Source: Candidatus Gastranaerophilales bacterium (GTDB taxonomy: Bacteria; Cyanobacteriota; Vampirovibrionia; Gastranaerophilales; Gastranaerophilaceae). Taken from it: a stretch of 44,135 bases of DNA. The first letter of the stretch is position 1. The number at the start of each line of letters is the position of its first letter. A model generated the notes under the pieces. That model had not been told where the DNA came from, ran no database searches, and saw only the letters and a list, made by a program, of their open reading frames with translations. The translations under genes were made by a program, and so were the position numbers. Where the stretch lies: assembly GCA_944323275.1 (NCBI GenBank), contig CALUSA010000010.1, forward strand, positions 1-44,135. The letters run 5' to 3'. Positions 4,228-41,437 of this stretch are shown piece by piece.

Positions 4228-5940
4228 ATGGGATTACCTAAAGTAGCATATTTCTCAATGGAAATTGCATTAGACCAATCATTGAGCACATATTCAGGCG
4301 GTTTAGGCTTCTTAGCCGGCTCACACATGCTTTCAGCAGGTTATTTGCAGCTGCCTATGGTCGGAGTCACAATGTTGTGGTCCTTCGGCTATTACAACCA
4401 GAGAATTAACGAAGAAGGCAATGTAGAAGTTGCTTATATAAGAAAACATTATGACTTCTTACAGGAAGTTGATGCTCAGGTTACACTCGATATCTTCGGT
4501 GAAAAAGTTATCGTTAAAGCTTTCCGTGTTGACCCTGATTTATTCGGCTCATGCCCTGTTTATCTGTTAACAACCGATGTTGACGGAAACTCTGAATGGG
4601 CACGTTCAATTTCTCACAAACTTTATGATGGAAACGAAAAAATCAGAATCGCTCAGGAAGTTGTACTCGGTGTAGGCGGTGTCAGACTGTTGCAGCAAAT
4701 CAAATATGATTTTGAATGCGTTCACATGAATGAAGGTCATGCTCTGCCGGCAGCATTTGAATTGTTAAGACAGAACAACGGCGACCTTGAAAAAACAAAA
4801 AGACAGGTTGTATTTACTACACACACACCTGTTGCTGCAGGTAACGAAGTTCACTGGGTTGATACACTTATGGAAGGCGGCTTCTTTGCAGGCTGCTCAA
4901 GAGAAAGAGCTATTGAACTCGGCGGCGAACACTTCTCATTAACAGTTGCAGCATTAAGAATGAGCCGTATTGCCAACGCTGTATCTCAGCTTCACGGTCT
5001 TGTTTCTAACAAAATGTGGAACTGGGTTGAAGGCAGATGCCCGATTAGAGCTATTACTAACGCTGTTAACCTTCATTACTGGCAAGATCCGAGAATGGCT
5101 AACGCTAAATCTCTGCAGGAATTGTTAGATGCTAAGATTGAAATGAAAAAAGAGGTATTTAGCTTTATTGCTAATGCTACTGGTAAAAGATTTGATCCTA
5201 ACGTTTTAACAATTACCTGGGCAAGAAGATTTGCCGATTACAAACGTGCATGGCTTATCTTTATGGATATGGACAGAATCTTAAAACTGTTAAACGCTGA
5301 CAAAGTTCAATTAATCTTTGCAGGTAAATTCCATCCGGATGATGCTAACGGACGTGAAATGTTCAACAACATTTTACACAAATCCTACAACATTAAAAAC
5401 GTTGCAGTACTTGCAGGTTATGAACTCGATTTAAGTGCTAAATTAAAAAGAGCTACAGATGTTTGGTTAAATACACCTATCAGACCGCTTGAAGCTTCTG
5501 GTACTTCCGGCATGTCTGCTAACGCAAACGGTGCATTACACCTTTCTATCTATGACGGCTGGGCTGTAGAAGGCACATTCCCGGGCATTAACGGTTATAC
5601 TGTTGAGTATCCGGGTCTTGATGACGATATTCCGTGGGAAGAAAGACACTGGAAAGACCACGATTGCATTATGGATATCATCGAAAATCAAATCATTCCT
5701 ACATACTATGATAACAAAATGGAATGGGCTAGAATGATGCGTCAGGCAATCAGAACATCAGAAGCTTACTTCAACTCTGACAGAATGGTTATAGAATACT
5801 TTAACAGAATCTATAAACCTATCGCTCACGAAAGTCCGAAAGAAGGCGGTTTGAATACAAACGCTTCCGATATGACGGTTGATCCTTCTCAAAAAGAAGC
5901 TCCGAATATGGATGCATGGACTTATTCAAATATTAAGTAA
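4228..5940 (+). CDS. GT35 alpha-glucan phosphorylase homologue lacking the PLP lysine, 570 aa
   Basis: The N-terminus (YFSMEIALDQS...YSGGLGFLAG), the basic WARRFADYKR segment and the AGKFHPDDANG loop identify the short-form alpha-glucan phosphorylases, which release glucose-1-phosphate from glycogen or maltodextrin. The block EASGTSGM is present, but the next residue, normally the lysine holding pyridoxal phosphate, is Ser430 (TCT at 5515-5517). No lysine lies nearby to replace it. The protein is 570 aa, shorter than most family members. It has a strong ribosome-binding site (AAAGGAGA) and codon choice rich in AAC and TTC, unlike most neighbours, which suggests high expression. It may be inactive as a phosphorylase or catalyse another glucosyl transfer. 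Fold assignment is firm; function is open. Confidence 0.88.
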   Translation: MGLPKVAYFSMEIALDQSLSTYSGGLGFLAGSHMLSAGYLQLPMVGVTMLWSFGYYNQRINEEGNVEVAYIRKHYDFLQEVDAQVTLDIFGEKVIVKAFRVDPDLFGSCPVYLLTTDVDGNSEWARSISHKLYDGNEKIRIAQEVVLGVGGVRLLQQIKYDFECVHMNEGHALPAAFELLRQNNGDLEKTKRQVVFTTHTPVAAGNEVHWVDTLMEGGFFAGCSRERAIELGGEHFSLTVAALRMSRIANAVSQLHGLVSNKMWNWVEGRCPIRAITNAVNLHYWQDPRMANAKSLQELLDAKIEMKKEVFSFIANATGKRFDPNVLTITWARRFADYKRAWLIFMDMDRILKLLNADKVQLIFAGKFHPDDANGREMFNNILHKSYNIKNVAVLAGYELDLSAKLKRATDVWLNTPIRPLEASGTSGMSANANGALHLSIYDGWAVEGTFPGINGYTVEYPGLDDDIPWEERHWKDHDCIMDIIENQIIPTYYDNKMEWARMMRQAIRTSEAYFNSDRMVIEYFNRIYKPIAHESPKEGGLNTNASDMTVDPSQKEAPNMDAWTYSNIK

Positions 5941-30575: not shown

Positions 30576-32093
30576 TTATGACATATTTGCGTGTTTTGAT
30601 TTTTGTGATTTATTTAAATATACTCCGCCGGCAGCAATTGCAGCTACGCCAAGGGCTATAAATATGTTTTTTTTATTGAATAAAGCAGCCTTGCTCATTG
30701 GTCTTTCTTTTATGTCCGAAACATTTTCCGAAACCATTTCAATAATTTTTTCGGATTTTTTGTTAATATTTTCAAAGACTTTTTTAATCAGGTCGTCTTT
30801 TTCTTCAAGTATCGAACCATGATATTTGGGATCTGCCAGTTCAGCTCTGAATGAATCAAGACGTTTTACCATTAAATTAAAGTATTCTTTTTCCGCCCCT
30901 ATTGCTTTTTCTGAAAATTCCTGAGTCTGATTAACAAGTTTGTTAAAATAGTCAAAAGCCTTTGTATGTGCACCCTGATAATCGTTCATAAGCCATTTTA
31001 ACTGAATTTTACCGAGTTCTGTTCTTGCAACATTTTCACCGGGTTCAGCCAGTACATTTTTGAAAACTTTTTCAGCCTCAAGAGCAGAGTTCTTCTGGTT
31101 GGTCTGAGCCAAATCACTGGGCGACATATCCATTTTTTCCAGAAATTCTACCATTGATGTATGATAATTAGCTGATTTCGCTTTTAAGTAATCAATCAAA
31201 AGTTGTTTTGGATTTTCGGCTTTATTGTGTTTTATGTAATCATAAATCGTTCTGAATTCAAAGTTAGAAGCATTGGATTTAATCTTTAAATTCGGATTGT
31301 CAGACAGATTTTTTATGTCATAAATCGGTTCATTGTTATAAAATATTGCTCTAAATTTATCTTTTACCGGTGAATTAATCTCTCCGCCGTTTTTGATAAA
31401 ATTTTCATCAATTGCGTCAGAAGAAATATAAGCACCGTTATTTCTTAAAATATTAAAAGACCCGAAATCAATAAATTTTGCTCTGTTGTCACTTGATAGA
31501 ATTATATTTCCGCTTTGTAAGTCACTGTGAGCAATACCGTTGATATCCATTGAAAAAGTCTTTTTCATAATATCAGATAAATTTTGTTGATTTAATTTTG
31601 CTTCAAAAGGATGTTTACCGTTAAGATTTTCTAAAACAAGATAATTATTATTGTGTCGGTTTATTAAATCTATTGGCTTTACGGCAATATCAGAATCAAT
31701 ATCCTGCATTCTTTTTAATATATGGTACTCTTTGATGTTGTTGTTGCCGTGAATATCGGCATAAGCATCTTTAACTCTGGGATTCGGCGATTTTAACCCG
31801 AATTCTTCATTTATTTTGAAGTATTCGCTCTGGAATCCTTTCCCGTTAGCGGTAGCCTGATTGGAGTTGATTCTGTCAATAAGATTTTCAGCCTCTTGCC
31901 TGTTGTAAACTCCTTTAAACGAAACAGGTTTTGCTTTAAAGTAGTTTGTTTGTGACTTTACAAAAATGTCATGGTCTAAATTTGAAGTTTTACCCAAGAA
32001 TGAAGTATCCACAGCCTGTGTTTGGTAATGCTTAGTCTGGTGTACATTACCAAGCTTTTGCACCGGCAACACGGATATAGATGCAGCTCTCAT
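30576..32093 (-). CDS. kinase-like protein with a C-terminal membrane anchor, 505 aa
   Basis: Residues 80-260 contain the core elements of a protein-kinase fold. A likely ATP-lysine lies in FGLKSPNP (Lys102) and a helix-C glutamate in KEYHILKRM (Glu122). The catalytic loop HSDLQSGN (189-196) supplies Asp191 and Asn196, followed by DFG (209-211). The glycine-rich loop is poor, so it may be an atypical or specialised kinase. A helical TPR-like region (about 340-450) follows, then a hydrophobic segment near the C-terminus (IFIALGVAAIAAGGVYL) that would anchor it in the membrane. The N-terminus is rich in Thr and Ser and carries an SFKG motif at 58-61. AAGGGG precedes ATG 32093. It is divergent from the operon at 32241. 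Confidence 0.8.
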   Translation of the reverse strand: MRAASISVLPVQKLGNVHQTKHYQTQAVDTSFLGKTSNLDHDIFVKSQTNYFKAKPVSFKGVYNRQEAENLIDRINSNQATANGKGFQSEYFKINEEFGLKSPNPRVKDAYADIHGNNNIKEYHILKRMQDIDSDIAVKPIDLINRHNNNYLVLENLNGKHPFEAKLNQQNLSDIMKKTFSMDINGIAHSDLQSGNIILSSDNRAKFIDFGSFNILRNNGAYISSDAIDENFIKNGGEINSPVKDKFRAIFYNNEPIYDIKNLSDNPNLKIKSNASNFEFRTIYDYIKHNKAENPKQLLIDYLKAKSANYHTSMVEFLEKMDMSPSDLAQTNQKNSALEAEKVFKNVLAEPGENVARTELGKIQLKWLMNDYQGAHTKAFDYFNKLVNQTQEFSEKAIGAEKEYFNLMVKRLDSFRAELADPKYHGSILEEKDDLIKKVFENINKKSEKIIEMVSENVSDIKERPMSKAALFNKKNIFIALGVAAIAAGGVYLNKSQKSKHANMS

Positions 32094-32240
32094 ATATTCG
32101 TCCCCTTTTGTTGTAATTTATTATAAACCAAATTTTAATTTTTGTGTATTACTCTTGTAACATTTTGTAAAACTAAACGAATTACTTCTTTTAATCAGTT
32201 ATCTTTTTTTTTATTATCAGAAAAAGTATTGAGGTACCTT

Positions 32241-33521
32241 GTGTTTATTAATCCCGTAAAATTTAATATAATCCCCAAATCCAACATATCTTTTAAAGCC
32301 GGTCAAACCAGTATATACGCTGACTTTGATAAGACTTATACACCATTTTCTCATGTTGAAATGTGTAACAGAAATTTGCTGCCTGAAGGTAGTGAAAGAA
32401 GAAAAGAATTCAATGAGTATTTCCAAAAATTTAAAGATTTTTATGACACTGCAAAAGGTAAAGTTTTGTTAACAATTACAACGGGAAGAAATTTACCTGA
32501 ATATAAATATGTTGAAGAAAATCTTAAAGATAAGCATTTAACGTACTTTTCGCCTGACGCAATAATTACAAAAGACGGCGGTGACCGATTTGTTAAAAAA
32601 GACGGAAAATGGCAAAAAGATACTGCAAAATCCCTTGAAATCGCAGATAAAACAAACGGTTGGGATTCTTTAAAAGTTAAAATAGATATTAAAAATATAA
32701 TCCGGCAGGAATATAAAAATCCTGTATTTATCGAATCTTATGTAAACAGAACCAGAGATGACTATGGATCTATTTCACTTGAGCGTGTGTTTGATACTTT
32801 GACACCCGAGCAGGCGGAGAATTATGTTTCTTTTACAAAAGATGAGGATAATGCGATAGAAATCGCTTTTTCTAATAATATTCCAACTGAGCGTATAAAA
32901 GAAAGAATTGAAGACTATTTTAAAAAGAACAATATTAAAGCTGTCGTAAAACATTATCCGCAGGATTATAACGGTTTTTGTCCGCAAATCTATAACGGGC
33001 AAAAAGAAATAGCTCCCGGTAATAAAATGTTTATAAAACCTGCTCCTGATGATGTACCGATTTCCAAATTATACGATGTAAAAAAAGCACTTAAAAAAGT
33101 TATTGATGATAATACCAATGATTTAATAATTGCAGCCGGTGACGAAGGTAATGATGAGAAAATGCTCAATCCTCTGAATTATCTTAGTTTATACGGCATT
33201 AATGTTGATAAAAGTGTTCCTTACAGAGTATTGTTCAGGGATGAAAAAATACTGTCAGCCATAGATAAAATGCCGTTTTATTCAATTGTTGTCGGTAACA
33301 GCCCAAAGCTTGACCATTTAAGAAAAATGGATACTGCATTAAGAGAAAGAGGTATCAATAAAATAATATGCATACCCGATTCTCTCGATAAAGAAAACGG
33401 GCTGTTAAAGTCAATTAAAACCGCAATGTATGACTATGCCGATAAAAATCTTGAGTATTCTTTTGAAATGGGCATGGATTTATATACCTCACTAATGGAC
33501 GGAGGTTCGATATGGCTATAG
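32241..33521 (+). CDS. HAD-superfamily phosphatase with SFKA N-terminal motif, 426 aa
   Basis: DFDKT (Asp28 and Asp30 of the DxDxT motif) and the later GDEGND (300-305) are the catalytic ends of the HAD fold; the cap between them is large, as in HAD-IIB/sucrose-phosphatase-like enzymes. A phosphosugar or another phosphate ester is the likely substrate. The frame opens at TTG 32142, but the start is probably GTG 32241, with GAGG six bases upstream; this also removes an unlikely N-terminus. An SFKA motif lies at 17-20, just before the catalytic core. The radical SAM gene starts ten bases before its stop, so the two are coupled. It heads the four-gene operon. Confidence 0.82.
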   Translation: MFINPVKFNIIPKSNISFKAGQTSIYADFDKTYTPFSHVEMCNRNLLPEGSERRKEFNEYFQKFKDFYDTAKGKVLLTITTGRNLPEYKYVEENLKDKHLTYFSPDAIITKDGGDRFVKKDGKWQKDTAKSLEIADKTNGWDSLKVKIDIKNIIRQEYKNPVFIESYVNRTRDDYGSISLERVFDTLTPEQAENYVSFTKDEDNAIEIAFSNNIPTERIKERIEDYFKKNNIKAVVKHYPQDYNGFCPQIYNGQKEIAPGNKMFIKPAPDDVPISKLYDVKKALKKVIDDNTNDLIIAAGDEGNDEKMLNPLNYLSLYGINVDKSVPYRVLFRDEKILSAIDKMPFYSIVVGNSPKLDHLRKMDTALRERGINKIICIPDSLDKENGLLKSIKTAMYDYADKNLEYSFEMGMDLYTSLMDGGSIWL

Positions 33522-34777
33522 AGCTTCCGTTTGAAATGGAATTTATCTTAAGTCTTACATACAGGTGCAATCTTAACTGTTCAATGTGTACTCAATACGG
33601 CGACGGGTTTAAACAAAACGCACCGGCAGATATGAGTGTTGAACAATGGGGAAATTTTTTTGAAACCGTATCAGACGTTTCTCCGAAGCCTAAAATGCTT
33701 TTGATGGGCGGTGAACCTTTATTATATAAAGATTTTGAAAAACTTTTTGCTCTTACACAAAAGCATGGTTTTAGTGTCCAGATAGTTACAAACGGAGTAT
33801 TGCTTGATAAATACCTGCCGCAAATTGCCGGGACTGATGCTACAATAACGATAAGTCTTGACGGTCTTGAAAATACGCATGATTCTATAAGAAATAAAAA
33901 AGGTACATTTAAAAAAGTTTTAGAAAATATTGACAGAATAGAACAGTACCAGAAGTCAGGCAGTAAGATAGAACTTTGTATAAACTGTGTTATGTTGCCC
34001 GATAACGTTGATGAGTTATCGGATTTTTTAAAATTTATACAGCAAAAGAATATAAAAACTCTTACTTTCCAGCATTTGCAGTTTTCTTCCGCTGAATTGA
34101 ATAAACTTACAGACAGTCAGTGGCGGCAAAGATTGGGAAATAATTATGCCGGCGGACTTATTCCGCCAAAGCAGTATAAAATAGACAAAAATTATGTTGA
34201 CAGATTAATCAATGCTATTGAAAAATTAAAAAATATCTGCACTACAACGGCTTTTGTCTTTCCTGCATTAGAAGATGAGGAGATAGAAAATTATTATCTG
34301 GATAAAGAACTTGATTCAATCAGAGCAGGAAGAATCTGTACAACTCTATGGGTGAATCCTACAATACATTCAAACGGTGATGTTTCTAACTGTATAGGTA
34401 ATATTATCGGCAATATTAATCAAGAAGATTTTTGGACGATATGGAATAATGAAAAAGCTAATAACTTAAGGCATGCGCTTTGCCGTTACGGTAAGTTCAC
34501 CATTTGTTCAAAATGCTGTAATTTTTATAAAGGCAATTTTATTTATGCACCTGACTCATTATTACAGATTAACGGCAAGCTGCTAAGCCTGCCTGATGAA
34601 ATTAATTATATTAAATCATCTAAAAATGGCGTATTTATTTTAGACAAATTCAGGGAAAAGACATTAAATAGTGCAACACCTGTTATACCGGTAGAAACCT
34701 TCTCACCTGCATCTGTCAGAAATCTGCAAAATACTGAAACTATCATCGCAACATTCAGCGAATTAAAAGGAGCTTAA
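33512..34777 (+). CDS. radical SAM protein with SPASM-like C-terminus, 421 aa
   Basis: CNLNCSMC (Cys19, 23, 26) binds the [4Fe-4S] cluster that cleaves S-adenosylmethionine, and GGEP (66-69) contacts it. The C-terminal part has six cysteines (276, 294, 324, 332, 335, 336) with RICTTLW and FWTIWNNEKA, typical of the SPASM/twitch region that holds one or two extra Fe-S clusters. Such enzymes modify peptides or proteins or perform other radical chemistry. The start at ATG 33512 has GGAGG upstream and overlaps the HAD gene by ten bases. The coiled-coil gene starts one base after its stop. The substrate may be one of the neighbours; no precursor peptide is obvious. Confidence 0.9.
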   Translation: MAIELPFEMEFILSLTYRCNLNCSMCTQYGDGFKQNAPADMSVEQWGNFFETVSDVSPKPKMLLMGGEPLLYKDFEKLFALTQKHGFSVQIVTNGVLLDKYLPQIAGTDATITISLDGLENTHDSIRNKKGTFKKVLENIDRIEQYQKSGSKIELCINCVMLPDNVDELSDFLKFIQQKNIKTLTFQHLQFSSAELNKLTDSQWRQRLGNNYAGGLIPPKQYKIDKNYVDRLINAIEKLKNICTTTAFVFPALEDEEIENYYLDKELDSIRAGRICTTLWVNPTIHSNGDVSNCIGNIIGNINQEDFWTIWNNEKANNLRHALCRYGKFTICSKCCNFYKGNFIYAPDSLLQINGKLLSLPDEINYIKSSKNGVFILDKFREKTLNSATPVIPVETFSPASVRNLQNTETIIATFSELKGA

Positions 34778-34778
34778 T

Positions 34779-36128
34779 ATGAAAATAAGTAAAATTTCTC
34801 CACAAAATGTAAAAAGAACAAGAGCAAATTCTCAGCATAAAGAACAGGATTTAACAAGCTTTGGCGCAAATGAAAATAAAACAGTTGTAGAAACAAAGAA
34901 TGCCTCTGATGCAATAAAAAGCAATTTCCTCTCGGGTATATCTTTTAAAGGTCAGACGCAGGATATTGTACACAAAAGAATCGGTACGGCAGGATGTATC
35001 GCCATTGGCAGAGAACCTAACTATAATGATTCTTTCTGTTCAATTGAACAAAAAATCGGTGAAACTCCGTTGAGTCATGCCAATTCATCTATTGAAAAAA
35101 CACATAACGCTTATACCACAAACAGAGTTTATTTTGCTGATCCCGAAGAATACGTATCCGAGCAGACAAAGCATGATCATGATTATATAGTTTATGACAA
35201 TCAGCCTAAATACCCGAGGCTGGAAGAAGTTAGAGAAAATTATTTCAATATAAATCGTAATGCCAAAAACTACGGGCAGAATTTTAAAACGCTTGCGGAA
35301 TACTACTACAGATTAGAGCTGGCTGATAAAAAAGAATTGCAAAAATTAATAGATGAAAAAAACAGTTTCCAGCACGAATATGATATTTCTGCAGGATACA
35401 AACACGACCTTGATGAAAAAGCTAATGAGTACCCTTGGCAGTCTGAAGATTTGAGAAGGGATAAAGAAAAGGCAGATTATTTCTATAGTATAAATTCTGA
35501 AAAATATGAAAATCTTAACCGGAAAATAGGTTATTATACGGACAGAATTAATCATTCTAAAATGCAGCAAAGAAAAGCTATACAGGCTTTTAAAATTTTT
35601 GATGAAGTCGGTTTGATGTTTTTTGAGCGTGATAATGCAAGGAATCAGATTGAGTATAAAAAATGGTGTATGCGCAATTCTCAAGAGGCAATAACCAAAA
35701 ATAACAAACTCTTAAACGATTTTAGAAGACAAAAAGCCGAGCTTGAAAAACAAATTAAGGGCACTCAGGAATGGAAAGACCTTAATGATGAAAAAGTTAA
35801 TGCACCTGATACTGACTACAGCCAGTACGGTTATGATGAAGCTCAGAGAAGAAGAAGTGAAGAAATAAGAGAAAAGGACGAAGCAAAAGAAGAAAGCAAA
35901 AGGGTCGCTAAAAAATTGGTTATTTTGCACGACAGATTAAATAAAATAGATATGAATCTAAAACAGGGGGAAAGGGCAAACAGAGAGCACCAGCTGTTGA
36001 TTGACAGATACAGAAAAGTACTCCCCGAATTGGAAGCAGGATTTAAATATAAATCTGAAGAAATCCAAAAATTCTATCCTAAAATGGAACAATTCTATCG
36101 TGATAATATAGAAGAATGGCAGTATTAA
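34779..36128 (+). CDS. long coiled-coil protein with SFKG motif, 449 aa
   Basis: The first 80 residues are polar and contain SFGA and, further on, GISFKGQTQ. From about residue 150 to the end the protein is predicted to be long charged helices with heptads (KKELQKLIDEKNSFQHEYD, KAELEKQIKGTQEWKDL), that is, a coiled coil of about 300 residues. No enzyme motif, membrane segment or signal peptide is visible. AAAGGAG inside the end of the radical SAM gene precedes ATG 34779, which lies one base after that gene's stop. The GH13-like gene starts 13 bases before its stop. It might be a scaffold or a substrate of its neighbours. Confidence 0.75.
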   Translation: MKISKISPQNVKRTRANSQHKEQDLTSFGANENKTVVETKNASDAIKSNFLSGISFKGQTQDIVHKRIGTAGCIAIGREPNYNDSFCSIEQKIGETPLSHANSSIEKTHNAYTTNRVYFADPEEYVSEQTKHDHDYIVYDNQPKYPRLEEVRENYFNINRNAKNYGQNFKTLAEYYYRLELADKKELQKLIDEKNSFQHEYDISAGYKHDLDEKANEYPWQSEDLRRDKEKADYFYSINSEKYENLNRKIGYYTDRINHSKMQQRKAIQAFKIFDEVGLMFFERDNARNQIEYKKWCMRNSQEAITKNNKLLNDFRRQKAELEKQIKGTQEWKDLNDEKVNAPDTDYSQYGYDEAQRRRSEEIREKDEAKEESKRVAKKLVILHDRLNKIDMNLKQGERANREHQLLIDRYRKVLPELEAGFKYKSEEIQKFYPKMEQFYRDNIEEWQY

Positions 36129-37987
36129 ATCAGTATAAATTTTATAATATAAACCCGAAAGATTGTTTGGACCTGCCGTTTGAACAATCTTTCTCAATGT
36201 TGAAAGAACTTTTAGGCGAGTCAACATTAAATAATGCTTTGGATATATCATCGTCCTATCCGTCACCGCTGGCAGACTGTAAAGATACTCAATGGTGTAA
36301 AACAATAAAAATAATCGGTATTAACCCTAGATTAACCAAAACCTTCTGGGGGATTGTAAAATATGCAATGACTTTCCCCGAGTCAGGTATTCACCTTATG
36401 CCGCTTTGGACAACTGGGGATAAGGGCAGTCTTTATGTACAAACCTCTTGGCGGCTTAATGAAGAATTTTTAGATACAGATTTGGCTAAGTCGGGCTATG
36501 ATACTGCCGAAAAACAATTGAAGCTTGTTATTAATATATTACATGCTCTGGGCAAAATTGTCGGTTTTGATGCTTTGCCGCATGTTGATAATTTTTCTGA
36601 AATTACGTTGCTTAATCCGGGATTTTTTGAATGGGCGAAACTTAATAAGCAAAAAAACTCTCAGCTTTTTTATCCCGATGTTGATTATAACTTTATCTAC
36701 AAAGAGGTTGAAAACATTATAATTTCCACTCTTAACGCACATGATAACCTTTTTGAGCTGCAGGAAAATGAACGGGAAAGTATTATTTTTCCTCAAAACA
36801 CAGATAGAACTGCTGTTAGAATAAAATTAATGAAAAAAATCAGGGCTGCAGGGCTTGAACCTTTGCCTGTTACGGAACATTCGCCTATGCGACCTGTAGT
36901 ATTTCAAAAAATAAAAAAATCCGGCTCTAACAGCTGGGCTGTTTTTGATGTGAAAAATCGTTCCAATGCAGCAAAAGTTATAGGCTGCATTACCCCTTAT
37001 AAATGGTATAAAATCGATACTCAGGGATATCCTGTTAAAAATGCACCGGAAGATGATGTTTGGAGCTATTATTCCGGAAAAATAGCCGATTTTCAAAACG
37101 AATATAATTTTGATTTTTTAAGAGCCGACATGGCTCACAATCAAATTTCGCATTCGCATATTTCAAATGAAAAAGACGAAAATGAAAAGCAGGAAATGTG
37201 GGCGTATCTAAAAAATAAAATTTCTTCTCAAAAACCCTATTTTGCCCTTCTTGCTGAGGCTTTTTATAATACTTATTACATAAACGGTATCTCGGATATG
37301 ATTAATAAAAAAGCCGATATTGTCCTTGGTAATATGAACTTTAAATACCTTAATAACGAATTTATTGACACTATCGATGACTTTTTAAAACCCTTTAGAG
37401 AAAACTTCCCGTTTTATCCGTGTATTTGTACTTTTTCAAATGACGGTGATTTAAAAGAGCATTCTAAGTATTTTCAATCAGAAGAAGCTAACGAGGTCAG
37501 ATTCTTTATTTCAATGTTTTTAAATTTGCCGTCTTATACCGGCATGGGATATGAAACAAAATCATTAAAGCCTCAAAAATCAAATGAGTTTTCTAACGAA
37601 TATGTTAAAAATCAATCCAAACCTTATCAATGGGGCAAAAATGCAGTTCTGTACGGACAGATTACGAAAATGCGTGAGTTGTACGTAAAATACAAATCAA
37701 TAATTGATAATTGCAGGCTGGATTTAATAAATAGTGAGAATAATGCTCTTGTCTGGTGTTATTATTCTGATAATGAGCCAAAGCTTTTGTTTGCAGTAAA
37801 TTTGAATCCTAACAAGCACGATATAAAAATCAAGCTGCCCTGTAATGTTGAATATGCAACCCTGTCTTATACCAACTCAAAATATGATGAAATTTGTATT
37901 GACTTAAATTCGTACAATATTGATATTGAAAACATTTACATTGGCGAATGTCTGATATTAGAACTTGATAAAGCTCTAGTTATTTGA
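36116..37987 (+). CDS. divergent GH13-like (alpha-amylase clan) protein, 623 aa
   Basis: Four regions follow the order of the alpha-amylase fold. Region I is GFDALPHVDNF (151-160); region II is FLRADMAH with Asp338 as the likely nucleophile; region III is LLAEAFYN with Glu381; region IV is TFSNDGD with Asp443. The block MPLWTTGDKGSLYVQTSW resembles the early loops of GH13. Overall similarity is weak, so the substrate, hydrolase or transferase activity is open. There is no signal peptide; it should act inside the cell. It overlaps the coiled-coil gene by 13 bases and its 3' end overlaps the convergent YkgJ-type gene by 12 bases. Confidence 0.75.
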   Translation: MAVLNQYKFYNINPKDCLDLPFEQSFSMLKELLGESTLNNALDISSSYPSPLADCKDTQWCKTIKIIGINPRLTKTFWGIVKYAMTFPESGIHLMPLWTTGDKGSLYVQTSWRLNEEFLDTDLAKSGYDTAEKQLKLVINILHALGKIVGFDALPHVDNFSEITLLNPGFFEWAKLNKQKNSQLFYPDVDYNFIYKEVENIIISTLNAHDNLFELQENERESIIFPQNTDRTAVRIKLMKKIRAAGLEPLPVTEHSPMRPVVFQKIKKSGSNSWAVFDVKNRSNAAKVIGCITPYKWYKIDTQGYPVKNAPEDDVWSYYSGKIADFQNEYNFDFLRADMAHNQISHSHISNEKDENEKQEMWAYLKNKISSQKPYFALLAEAFYNTYYINGISDMINKKADIVLGNMNFKYLNNEFIDTIDDFLKPFRENFPFYPCICTFSNDGDLKEHSKYFQSEEANEVRFFISMFLNLPSYTGMGYETKSLKPQKSNEFSNEYVKNQSKPYQWGKNAVLYGQITKMRELYVKYKSIIDNCRLDLINSENNALVWCYYSDNEPKLLFAVNLNPNKHDIKIKLPCNVEYATLSYTNSKYDEICIDLNSYNIDIENIYIGECLILELDKALVI

Positions 37988-40078: not shown

Positions 40079-41437
40079 CTAATTATTTACCGGTATTAAT
40101 TTATATTTTCTTACACCGACACCGAGTTCAGAGGCTGCTTCTACAGTGTGGATACCGTGCCTTGATTCGATGCGTTGAATTAAAGAAGCTTTGCCTGTGT
40201 CATCAGAGTTATAGACTAAATCTACGCAAGCCTGATCAAGTGCAACAGGGTCATCTGATGCAAGTATTCCGATATCTGCCATTTCCGGCGGTGACGGATT
40301 GTTGTTGCAATCGCAATCAACTGACATTTTGCTCATGACATTAATAAAAGTAATATTACCCTTCATATAGTCCATAACTGATTTGTCTGCATCTGCCATT
40401 GCTTCTAAAAATTTGTCCTGTTCGCAGGTCCATATTTTATCAGGCTCGCCTGCTCCGTGAATACAGGCTTTGCCGTGCGAAGATGCAATACCTATAGACA
40501 TATTTTTGAGTGCTCCGCCAAAGCCGCCCATTTGGTGTCCTTTAAAGTGCGACAATACAAGCATTGAATCATAATTTTTGAGATGCGAGCCTACATAATT
40601 AACTTTTATTTGTTTGCCGTTTTTTACAGGCAGCTCCATTTCTCCGTCTTCATCCATAATATCTACTTTTGCAATTTTATCAAAGCCGTGTTCTTTTATA
40701 ACCTGTTTGTGTTCTTCCGTTGTATCTCTCCTGCCTGCGTATGCTGTATTGCATTCGACAATTGTTCCGTTAAGGTAATCAATAAGCGGTTTCATAAATT
40801 CAGGTTGTAAGAAATTATGCCCGCCTGGTTCGCCTGAATGTACTTTTACTGCGACCTTTCCTGAAAGCTTTTTACCAAGCGTTTTGTATATTTCAACAAG
40901 TGCCTCAGGTGTTATATCACTTGTGTAATATACAATTGCCGTATCAGGATAAACTTTTTTGTAAATCAAACCGTAAGCCTGTGCCGGACTTGTAGCATTT
41001 TTTGTCAGATCTTCAAACGGACACAAGCCTGTTTTGGTTCTGTTTTGAATTTCGTTTACTACGTGTTTTGCTTCATATTTAACATTGTTTTTCTTTAAAA
41101 TTTCTATAGCCGGTTTTGAGATTGTGTCGGCATAAACATATTTTGCATGTCCGTAAACATAAAGGTATGCAGCAGCTCTGCCAACAGTTTTGTCAAAAGC
41201 AAATGAGTCTTTAAAATCATCATTTTCCAAATACAATAAAAGAGGTACAAGACCGTGCTGTGAGTATGTTTTTATTTGGTCGTTGTCGCTGTATATAACA
41301 AGTGATTCTGTGTTGAGTTTATCAATAAGCATTGATTTTGTTTTTGTACTGAGTTTGCTTTCTTTGCATAAAACAGGGGCACAAAAAAGTAATATACCCA
41401 TTAGCGAAAGCAAAGTTATTTTCAATATTTTGTACAT
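40079..41437 (-). CDS. secreted DUF1893-DUF362 fusion protein, 452 aa
   Basis: A signal peptide (about 24 residues) precedes a DUF1893 domain (about 40-145) with LVIYSDNDQIKTYSQ, FDKTVGRAAAYLYV and NRTKTGLCPFEDLTKN. A DUF362 domain (about 190-445) follows, with VKVHSGEPGGHNFLQPEF and the hallmark SHFKGHQMGGFGGALKN. DUF362 proteins are usually linked to iron-sulfur clusters, and here the region near CDCNNNP could hold one; no ferredoxin domain is present. Both parts are of unknown function. ATG 41437 follows GAGGAGG. Linked to the hydrolase gene downstream by a short gap. Confidence 0.85.
   Translation of the reverse strand: MYKILKITLLSLMGILLFCAPVLCKESKLSTKTKSMLIDKLNTESLVIYSDNDQIKTYSQHGLVPLLLYLENDDFKDSFAFDKTVGRAAAYLYVYGHAKYVYADTISKPAIEILKKNNVKYEAKHVVNEIQNRTKTGLCPFEDLTKNATSPAQAYGLIYKKVYPDTAIVYYTSDITPEALVEIYKTLGKKLSGKVAVKVHSGEPGGHNFLQPEFMKPLIDYLNGTIVECNTAYAGRRDTTEEHKQVIKEHGFDKIAKVDIMDEDGEMELPVKNGKQIKVNYVGSHLKNYDSMLVLSHFKGHQMGGFGGALKNMSIGIASSHGKACIHGAGEPDKIWTCEQDKFLEAMADADKSVMDYMKGNITFINVMSKMSVDCDCNNNPSPPEMADIGILASDDPVALDQACVDLVYNSDDTGKASLIQRIESRHGIHTVEAASELGVGVRKYKLIPVNN

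Follow-up and report, generated by a model that had tools for sequence, protein, structure and literature searches.

The stretch of DNA analyzed here, called the window, covers positions 1 to 44,135 of contig CALUSA010000010.1 (assembly GCA_944323275.1) from a Candidatus Gastranaerophilales bacterium whose genome amounts to 2.27 Mb in 165 contigs. The subject is a set of five genes between positions 30576 and 37987, referred to as the cassette, together with the spacer from which two of them diverge:

30576 to 32093, minus strand: KIN, a protein of 505 amino acids (aa) with a protein-kinase fold (Pkinase profile, conserved motifs, C-terminal anchor)
32094 to 32240, no strand: divergent intergenic region of 147 base pairs (bp), from the sequence
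32241 to 33521, plus strand: HAD, a HAD-IIB phosphatase-like protein, 426 aa (TIGR01484, four HAD motifs)
33512 to 34777, plus strand: rSAM, a radical SAM enzyme with a C-terminal SPASM/Twitch-type domain (Radical_SAM and SPASM profiles, invariant Cys)
34779 to 36128, plus strand: COIL, a coiled-coil protein of 449 aa (AlphaFold model, alignment; no family)
36116 to 37987, plus strand: GH, a GH13-type, maltosyltransferase-like alpha-glucan enzyme, 623 aa (hmmsearch, Foldseek, invariant residues)

HAD, rSAM, COIL, and GH make up a closely packed, predicted operon divergent from KIN. HAD and rSAM overlap by 10 bp, a gap of 1 bp separates rSAM from COIL, and COIL and GH overlap by 13 bp. The HAD open reading frame (ORF) was listed from a TTG at 32142. 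However, the true start is likely the GTG at 32241, which sits behind a GAGGT sequence and corresponds to the residue where close orthologues begin (MFINP[VI]K). With this start the KIN-HAD spacer is exactly 147 bp, and all five reading frames and the distances between them agree with a preliminary description of this DNA. Both promoters are presumably located in the spacer; a promoter scan of these 147 bp returned approximately the number of matches expected by chance, and no promoter is claimed.

The preliminary description also treated the five genes as one unit, an idea that would have failed had the genes been mostly apart in close relatives or the kinase never adjacent to the other four. 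Neither was the case when related genomes were searched for all five genes. The complete set is present at 20 of the 29 non-redundant Gastranaerophilales GH loci (all such loci collected, each counted once; L numbers below denote loci and G numbers genomes), and KIN is divergent from HAD in 20 of 20. Moreover, among 118 related genomes, one per species, full-length orthologues were identified for GH in 13, for rSAM in 12, and for HAD and KIN in 11 each; the four occur together in 11 genomes, while 105 have none of them. The corresponding Fisher p values for co-occurrence range from 1e-13 to 1e-15 in a test that ignores shared ancestry and draws on fragmented metagenome-assembled genomes (MAGs). 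Where relatives come from named genomes, these are for the most part MAGs of Candidatus Gastranaerophilales, and the cassette recurs across genera at different genomic sites.

The gene order varies among these loci. In type A (the window and L115-L120), KIN diverges from a series of HAD, rSAM, COIL, and GH. Type B (L122-L124, L178) is split into one unit with rSAM, COIL (not in every case), GH, a methyltransferase, and a pseudo-rSAM, and another in which KIN diverges from HAD followed by one or two COIL genes; L124 has no methyltransferase. In type C (L126, L184-L188, L190, L200), COIL is replaced by a protein of ~190-210 aa carrying the N-terminal tag described below, and L121, L125, L182, L177, L175, L198, L191, and L199 are partial loci. 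Identity to the window drops in parallel for the members, being ~65-84% in type A and 42-52% in type B, which fits joint inheritance. For G057 the values are 49% (GH), 44% (rSAM), 33% (HAD), and 23% (KIN).

Within the genus, the full cassette is found in 10 of the 22 other members and a part of it in one more (G013). The housekeeping protein GlyS is 81% identical to that of the window in type-B genomes and 71% identical in G040; the GH identities are 50-53% and 62-63%, respectively, and a GH tree with the genus as one clade is rejected (p-AU 1e-6). The tree and the patchy presence indicate that the cassette is gained and lost as a unit, and they point to horizontal transfer or ancient paralogy as the probable background. 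A link to flagellar genes, raised by the neighborhoods of L115 and L127, was discarded; it is regarded as synteny common to two genomes, as the cassette lies at other sites elsewhere.

KIN matches the Pkinase profile (E=2.6e-8) above the Pfam cut-off; 10 of 10 orthologues match the profile too, and HxDLQxGN and IDFG are kept in them. The signature of eukaryotic-like protein kinases (Lys/Glu pair, HxD...N, DFG) is recognizable, with E122, D191, N196, and D209-F-G invariant and K101 nearly so; matches to Bud32, KDO kinase, and choline kinase were obtained as well. The protein had been described as a membrane-anchored kinase-like protein, and a C-terminal transmembrane anchor at residues ~477-493 is indeed conserved in the cassette kinases; the divergent L192 kinase shows no such segment, and most non-cassette relatives lack it. 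TIGR01484 matches 9 of 10 HAD members, the window protein at E=7e-7 with a score short of the model cut-off, and sucrose-phosphatase-like families match too. The motifs of HAD-IIB enzymes (DxDxT, S/T motif, Lys, GDxxND) appear as DFDxTY, ITTGRN, K266, and GDEGNDE, which are kept in 10 orthologues. Outside the cassette, KIN and HAD lie within 6 kb of each other, without rSAM or GH, in 9 of the 10 genomes having both families. This adjacency indicates that the two are functionally tied, whatever their substrate, and KIN-HAD is a sub-module of its own. Such pairs were noted in other Gastranaerophilales at L128, L129, L130, L133, L134, L137, L138, L139, and L141, and a further tagged protein is often situated between or beside non-cassette pairs. 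Hence, the earlier proposal of opposing kinase and phosphatase activities stands insofar as the two belong together, while action on a protein is not the sole option, since this HAD class often acts on sugar phosphates.

The radical SAM enzyme matches the Radical_SAM (E=3.4e-26) and SPASM (E=8.7e-8) profiles. Cys19, Cys23, and Cys26 (CX3CX2C) together with Cys276, Cys294, Cys332, Cys335, and Cys336 are invariant in all full-length members. Full SPASM domains, with two auxiliary clusters, are defined by a seven-Cys motif, CX9-15GX4C-gap-CX2CX5CX3C-gap-C (PMC6231123). This motif is not present in rSAM, where C276, C294, C332, and C335 (plus C336) are the only conserved Cys outside the SAM motif, in the pattern CX12GX4C...CX2C. 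The eight conserved Cys thus comprise CX3CX2C and the ligand set of one auxiliary cluster, and a Twitch-type enzyme with a single auxiliary cluster fits better as judged from these predicted ligands. Accordingly, of the earlier assignment as radical SAM/SPASM-like, the radical SAM core and a SPASM-family domain are retained, but not a full SPASM domain. Among solved structures, the peptide-modifying SkfB is the best relative (E=3.6e-21); BtrN and cytosylglucuronate decarboxylase also match. All NCBIfam scores are far under their cut-offs, and the likeness to radical SAM families is diffuse. A paralogue that has lost CX3CX2C and kept the auxiliary-cluster Cys, referred to as pseudo-rSAM, is encoded directly downstream of a small methyltransferase gene:

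L116:12950-13900, plus strand: pseudo-rSAM
L122:8207-9151, minus strand: pseudo-rSAM
L123:12248-13156, plus strand: pseudo-rSAM
L125:13020-13919, plus strand: pseudo-rSAM

For GH, the preliminary assignment as a GH13-like protein was borne out and can be refined to maltosyltransferase-like. Only one solved structure is a credible relative by sequence, the Thermotoga maritima maltosyltransferase 1gju (hmmsearch, E=2.3e-4), which Foldseek also ranks first (E=2.1e-17); alpha-amylase-superfamily enzymes make up the fold matches listed. R336, D338, H341, E381, and D443 are invariant in 12 sequences. The hallmarks of the GH13/alpha-amylase superfamily, i.e., a TIM-barrel, R-x-D-x-x-H, and the catalytic E and D, can thus be identified in a model with a pLDDT of 68, while no Pfam family, the GH13 models included, matched the sequence. 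At L199, Pfam places a GT5 starch-synthase domain in the same protein as the GH relative, and a second GT5 gene lies behind this fusion. More generally, L191:9007-12651 (plus strand) and L199:8992-12654 (plus strand) both encode ~1220-aa proteins with a GH-type domain, and the gene after each is for a GT5-type starch synthase of 579 aa; the same ORF size and start suggest that the L191 protein is also a GH-GT5 fusion. Together with the pairing of COIL and GH, the GT5 fusion relatives point to alpha-glucan chemistry, and considering the nearest solved relative as well, GH would act on an alpha-glucan. Single-gene GH relatives with ~30% identity occur in Emticicia (Bacteroidota) at L194:4963-6972 (plus strand), L195, L196, L197, and L201. 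No cassette surrounds these homologues, which lie in a conserved, unrelated neighborhood, and no Pfam family recognizes the L194 protein.

COIL matched no protein family in profile searches, and a fold search against the PDB returned generic coiled coils (E>0.03) and no confident match. Its AlphaFold model (mean pLDDT 77; below 50 for residues 1-57) has helices at residues 166-217, 223-340, and 352-448. The predicted layout is a disordered N-terminus with two SF[KG][GA]-type tags, a small beta region, long helices, and a conserved C-terminal tail, KMEEFYxNNxEEWQY. The proteins encoded at this fourth position of the cassette range from 182 to 498 aa and have the N-terminal element AIKxxFL[SA]x[IV]SFxG in common, while the remainder diverges, a pattern that is substrate- or docking-like. 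Profile comparison identified one short and one divergent form as clearly homologous to COIL, and a 196-aa form matches it over the N-terminal element only. The long-coil members share the tail KMEEFYxNNxEEWQ[YFI], which is degenerate in L198. At L175, a 341-aa tagged helical protein, whose gene overlaps GH, may be a distant COIL homologue, given a weak match to COIL (hhalign E=0.009, probability 4.6%). COIL and GH stay adjacent even at loci that have lost rSAM, HAD, and KIN (L121, L125, L198). Moreover, different variants have coil-family genes beside GH, rSAM, or HAD, in up to four copies, which leaves the suggested role of COIL as a hub plausible.

The SF[KG][GA] tag is common to the N-termini of KIN (PVSFKGV), HAD (ISFKAG), and COIL. 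In a sample of the window's genome (403 ORFs from 444 kb), SF[KG][GAS] occurs 20 times within residues 1-80 and 2 times elsewhere, i.e., it is ~30-fold enriched (Fisher p 8.7e-11), and about 18 of the 403 ORFs carry the tag. Within the genus it is found on AAA ATPases, a protease-like protein, kinases, and HADs, among others (window 30576-36128 and L148-L167). Samples from other genera or families revealed no enrichment of the strict tag, which in this form is therefore genus-enriched and not order-wide, and no mention of it turned up in the literature searched. Beside the G057 cassette, L126:12362-16359 (plus strand) encodes three consecutive motif-bearing proteins, at least one of which has a clear P-loop ATPase motif. 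The possibility that the tag follows the flagellar/type III export gene FlhB was also considered and found uninformative. FlhB (PF01312) is present in 112 of the 118 genomes, with two genes per genome in nearly all genus members, and judged by FlhB the export/flagellar machinery is nearly universal in this set. The tag, however, is abundant in the genus only, the strict form being absent or rare in samples from other lineages with and without FlhB.

The five-gene set matches no described system. As a tentative interpretation, which we favor while regarding it as possible rather than probable, the cassette would encode a phosphorylation-switched alpha-glucan enzyme on a coiled-coil scaffold that bears the tag and is modified by the radical SAM enzyme. 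The core would be COIL and GH, a tagged scaffold that either holds the alpha-glucan-transferring enzyme or is its place of action. At the membrane, the anchored KIN and HAD would constitute an antagonistic phosphorylation switch that controls the scaffold or the enzyme. An additional covalent change would be made by the radical SAM enzyme, with COIL, whose gene usually follows rSAM, as the likeliest acceptor, and some variants would add the methyltransferase and a partner that keeps the auxiliary-cluster domain only. This model builds on the observed gene linkage, active-site conservation, anchor, N-terminal tag, and COIL-GH linkage, while the reactions, the substrate, and the direction of regulation are what we infer. 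Precedent comes from Actinobacteria, where the Ser/Thr kinase PknB phosphorylates GlgE, a GH13 maltosyltransferase (PMC11046441). That system likewise has a maltosyltransferase-type GH13 enzyme and a membrane-anchored protein-kinase-fold protein in an alpha-glucan context. The cassette differs in joining kinase, phosphatase, and GH in one gene unit with rSAM and tagged COIL; in addition, no TreS or maltokinase gene is seen in it, and its GH is closer to the T. maritima maltosyltransferase than to GlgE. With the latter enzyme (1gju/1gjw), the best match by both profile and fold, the catalytic region aligns around R336/D338/H341; GH is, however, 15% identical to it, and its activity is a predicted one.

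Several observations weigh against this model. The COIL tail is kept in L121, which has no rSAM, and hence is no evidence for modification by rSAM; on this ground, the EEWQY tail was dropped as a candidate crosslink site. The fourth-position protein of G057-type cassettes is short and has neither the long coil nor the tail, and the type-B loci L122, L124, and L178 have no coil gene between rSAM and GH. The GH fold model is of moderate quality only, as its mean pLDDT indicates, and no model of a RiPP (ribosomally synthesized and post-translationally modified peptide) recognition element (RRE) matched rSAM in profile searches. Finally, HAD-IIB enzymes and kinases of the protein-kinase fold can use sugars instead of proteins.

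The last point leads to a carbohydrate pathway, in which KIN would be a sugar kinase, HAD a sugar-phosphate phosphatase, and rSAM a sugar oxidase like BtrN or BlsE, with GH and the optional methyltransferase building or modifying an alpha-glucan-derived molecule and COIL merely scaffolding. The HAD-IIB and sucrose-phosphatase-like matches, the similarity of KIN to non-protein kinases, the four-Cys one-cluster set of rSAM with its BtrN and cytosylglucuronate decarboxylase matches, and the GH13 relationship with its GT5 fusion all agree with this scenario. However, KIN-HAD pairs are found in many genomes with no GH, rSAM, or methyltransferase alongside, the protein-kinase family is the best Pfam match by member count (ten kinases), and KIN and HAD carry the same tag as COIL, and we consider such a pathway rather unlikely. 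Peptide maturation, which appears improbable to the same degree, would make the fourth-position protein a precursor-like substrate and the tag its leader; rSAM would introduce crosslinks or similar changes, GH and the optional methyltransferase would decorate the product, and KIN and HAD would exert control. The adjacency of rSAM and the fourth-position gene in most cassettes, the retention of the N-terminal element in proteins otherwise diverged or duplicated, the highly conserved EEWQ[YFI] tail in the long-coil group, and the relationship to SkfB are in keeping with this idea. The fourth-position proteins are, however, large and mostly helical, and the tail is missing from the short forms besides persisting in L121. 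Neither the short precursor nor the RRE or other leader-binding domain that characterizes a RiPP maturation cluster was found in the size range of these proteins or in the profile searches. The cassette rSAM shares CX3CX2C and the ligands of one auxiliary cluster with SkfB, BtrN, MoaA, and BlsE (SPASM/Twitch), while its diffuse family likeness and neighbors unlike theirs set it apart.

A new protein-modification system is a doubtful proposition, more so than either of the foregoing. In it, SF[KG]G-tagged coiled-coil proteins would be the shared target of the membrane kinase/HAD switch, the Twitch-type radical SAM enzyme, and the GH13 glucan transferase (radical chemistry, glucosylation, phosphorylation), and the tag would mark a lineage-specific compartment or export route for ~4% of the proteome. 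Far less credence is given to anti-phage defense, in which rSAM would be viperin-like and KIN PD-T4-6-like within a patchily distributed set. PADLOC reports pVip for rSAM (5.8e-24) and PD-T4-6 for KIN (8.6e-7), the cassette is patchy within the genus where the gene tree rejects a single clade, and some prokaryotic viperins pair with a kinase, as a kinase gene lies near rSAM here. Viperins, however, are not known to have an auxiliary-cluster domain. The cassette enzyme has one, is about equally similar to many radical SAM families, and scores 73.9 bits against a viperin cut-off of 180 in NCBIfam, so that a viperin identity was rejected; its kinase is protein-kinase-like. GH, HAD, and COIL have no defense match, the PADLOC hits are generic kinase and rSAM matches outside the defining arrangement of any known defense system, and no defense island was seen, although the flanks were not systematically scanned for one. 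That independent genes share an operon by coincidence, with no common function, is hardly credible. Taken one by one the families are common, and proximity is all that the window alone reveals, whereas joint presence and absence in the 118 genomes, recurrence across genera and sites, and parallel divergence contradict it.

The Gastranaerophilales, uncultured relatives of cyanobacteria that are common in the gut, have almost no genes that were studied experimentally. In this context, a cassette that is whole across genera yet gained and lost as a unit constitutes a well-delimited target. Phosphorylation control, radical chemistry, and alpha-glucan metabolism are linked in it, and it brings to light an N-terminal tag, enriched in the genus, that is directly testable in a heterologous host.

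Two further genes in the window deserve mention. Positions 4228-5940 (plus strand) encode a carbohydrate phosphorylase that is divergent and, at 570 aa, short; it may belong to the same glucan metabolism. At 40079-41437 (minus strand), DUF1893 (TM1506) and DUF362 are fused behind a signal-like N-terminus.

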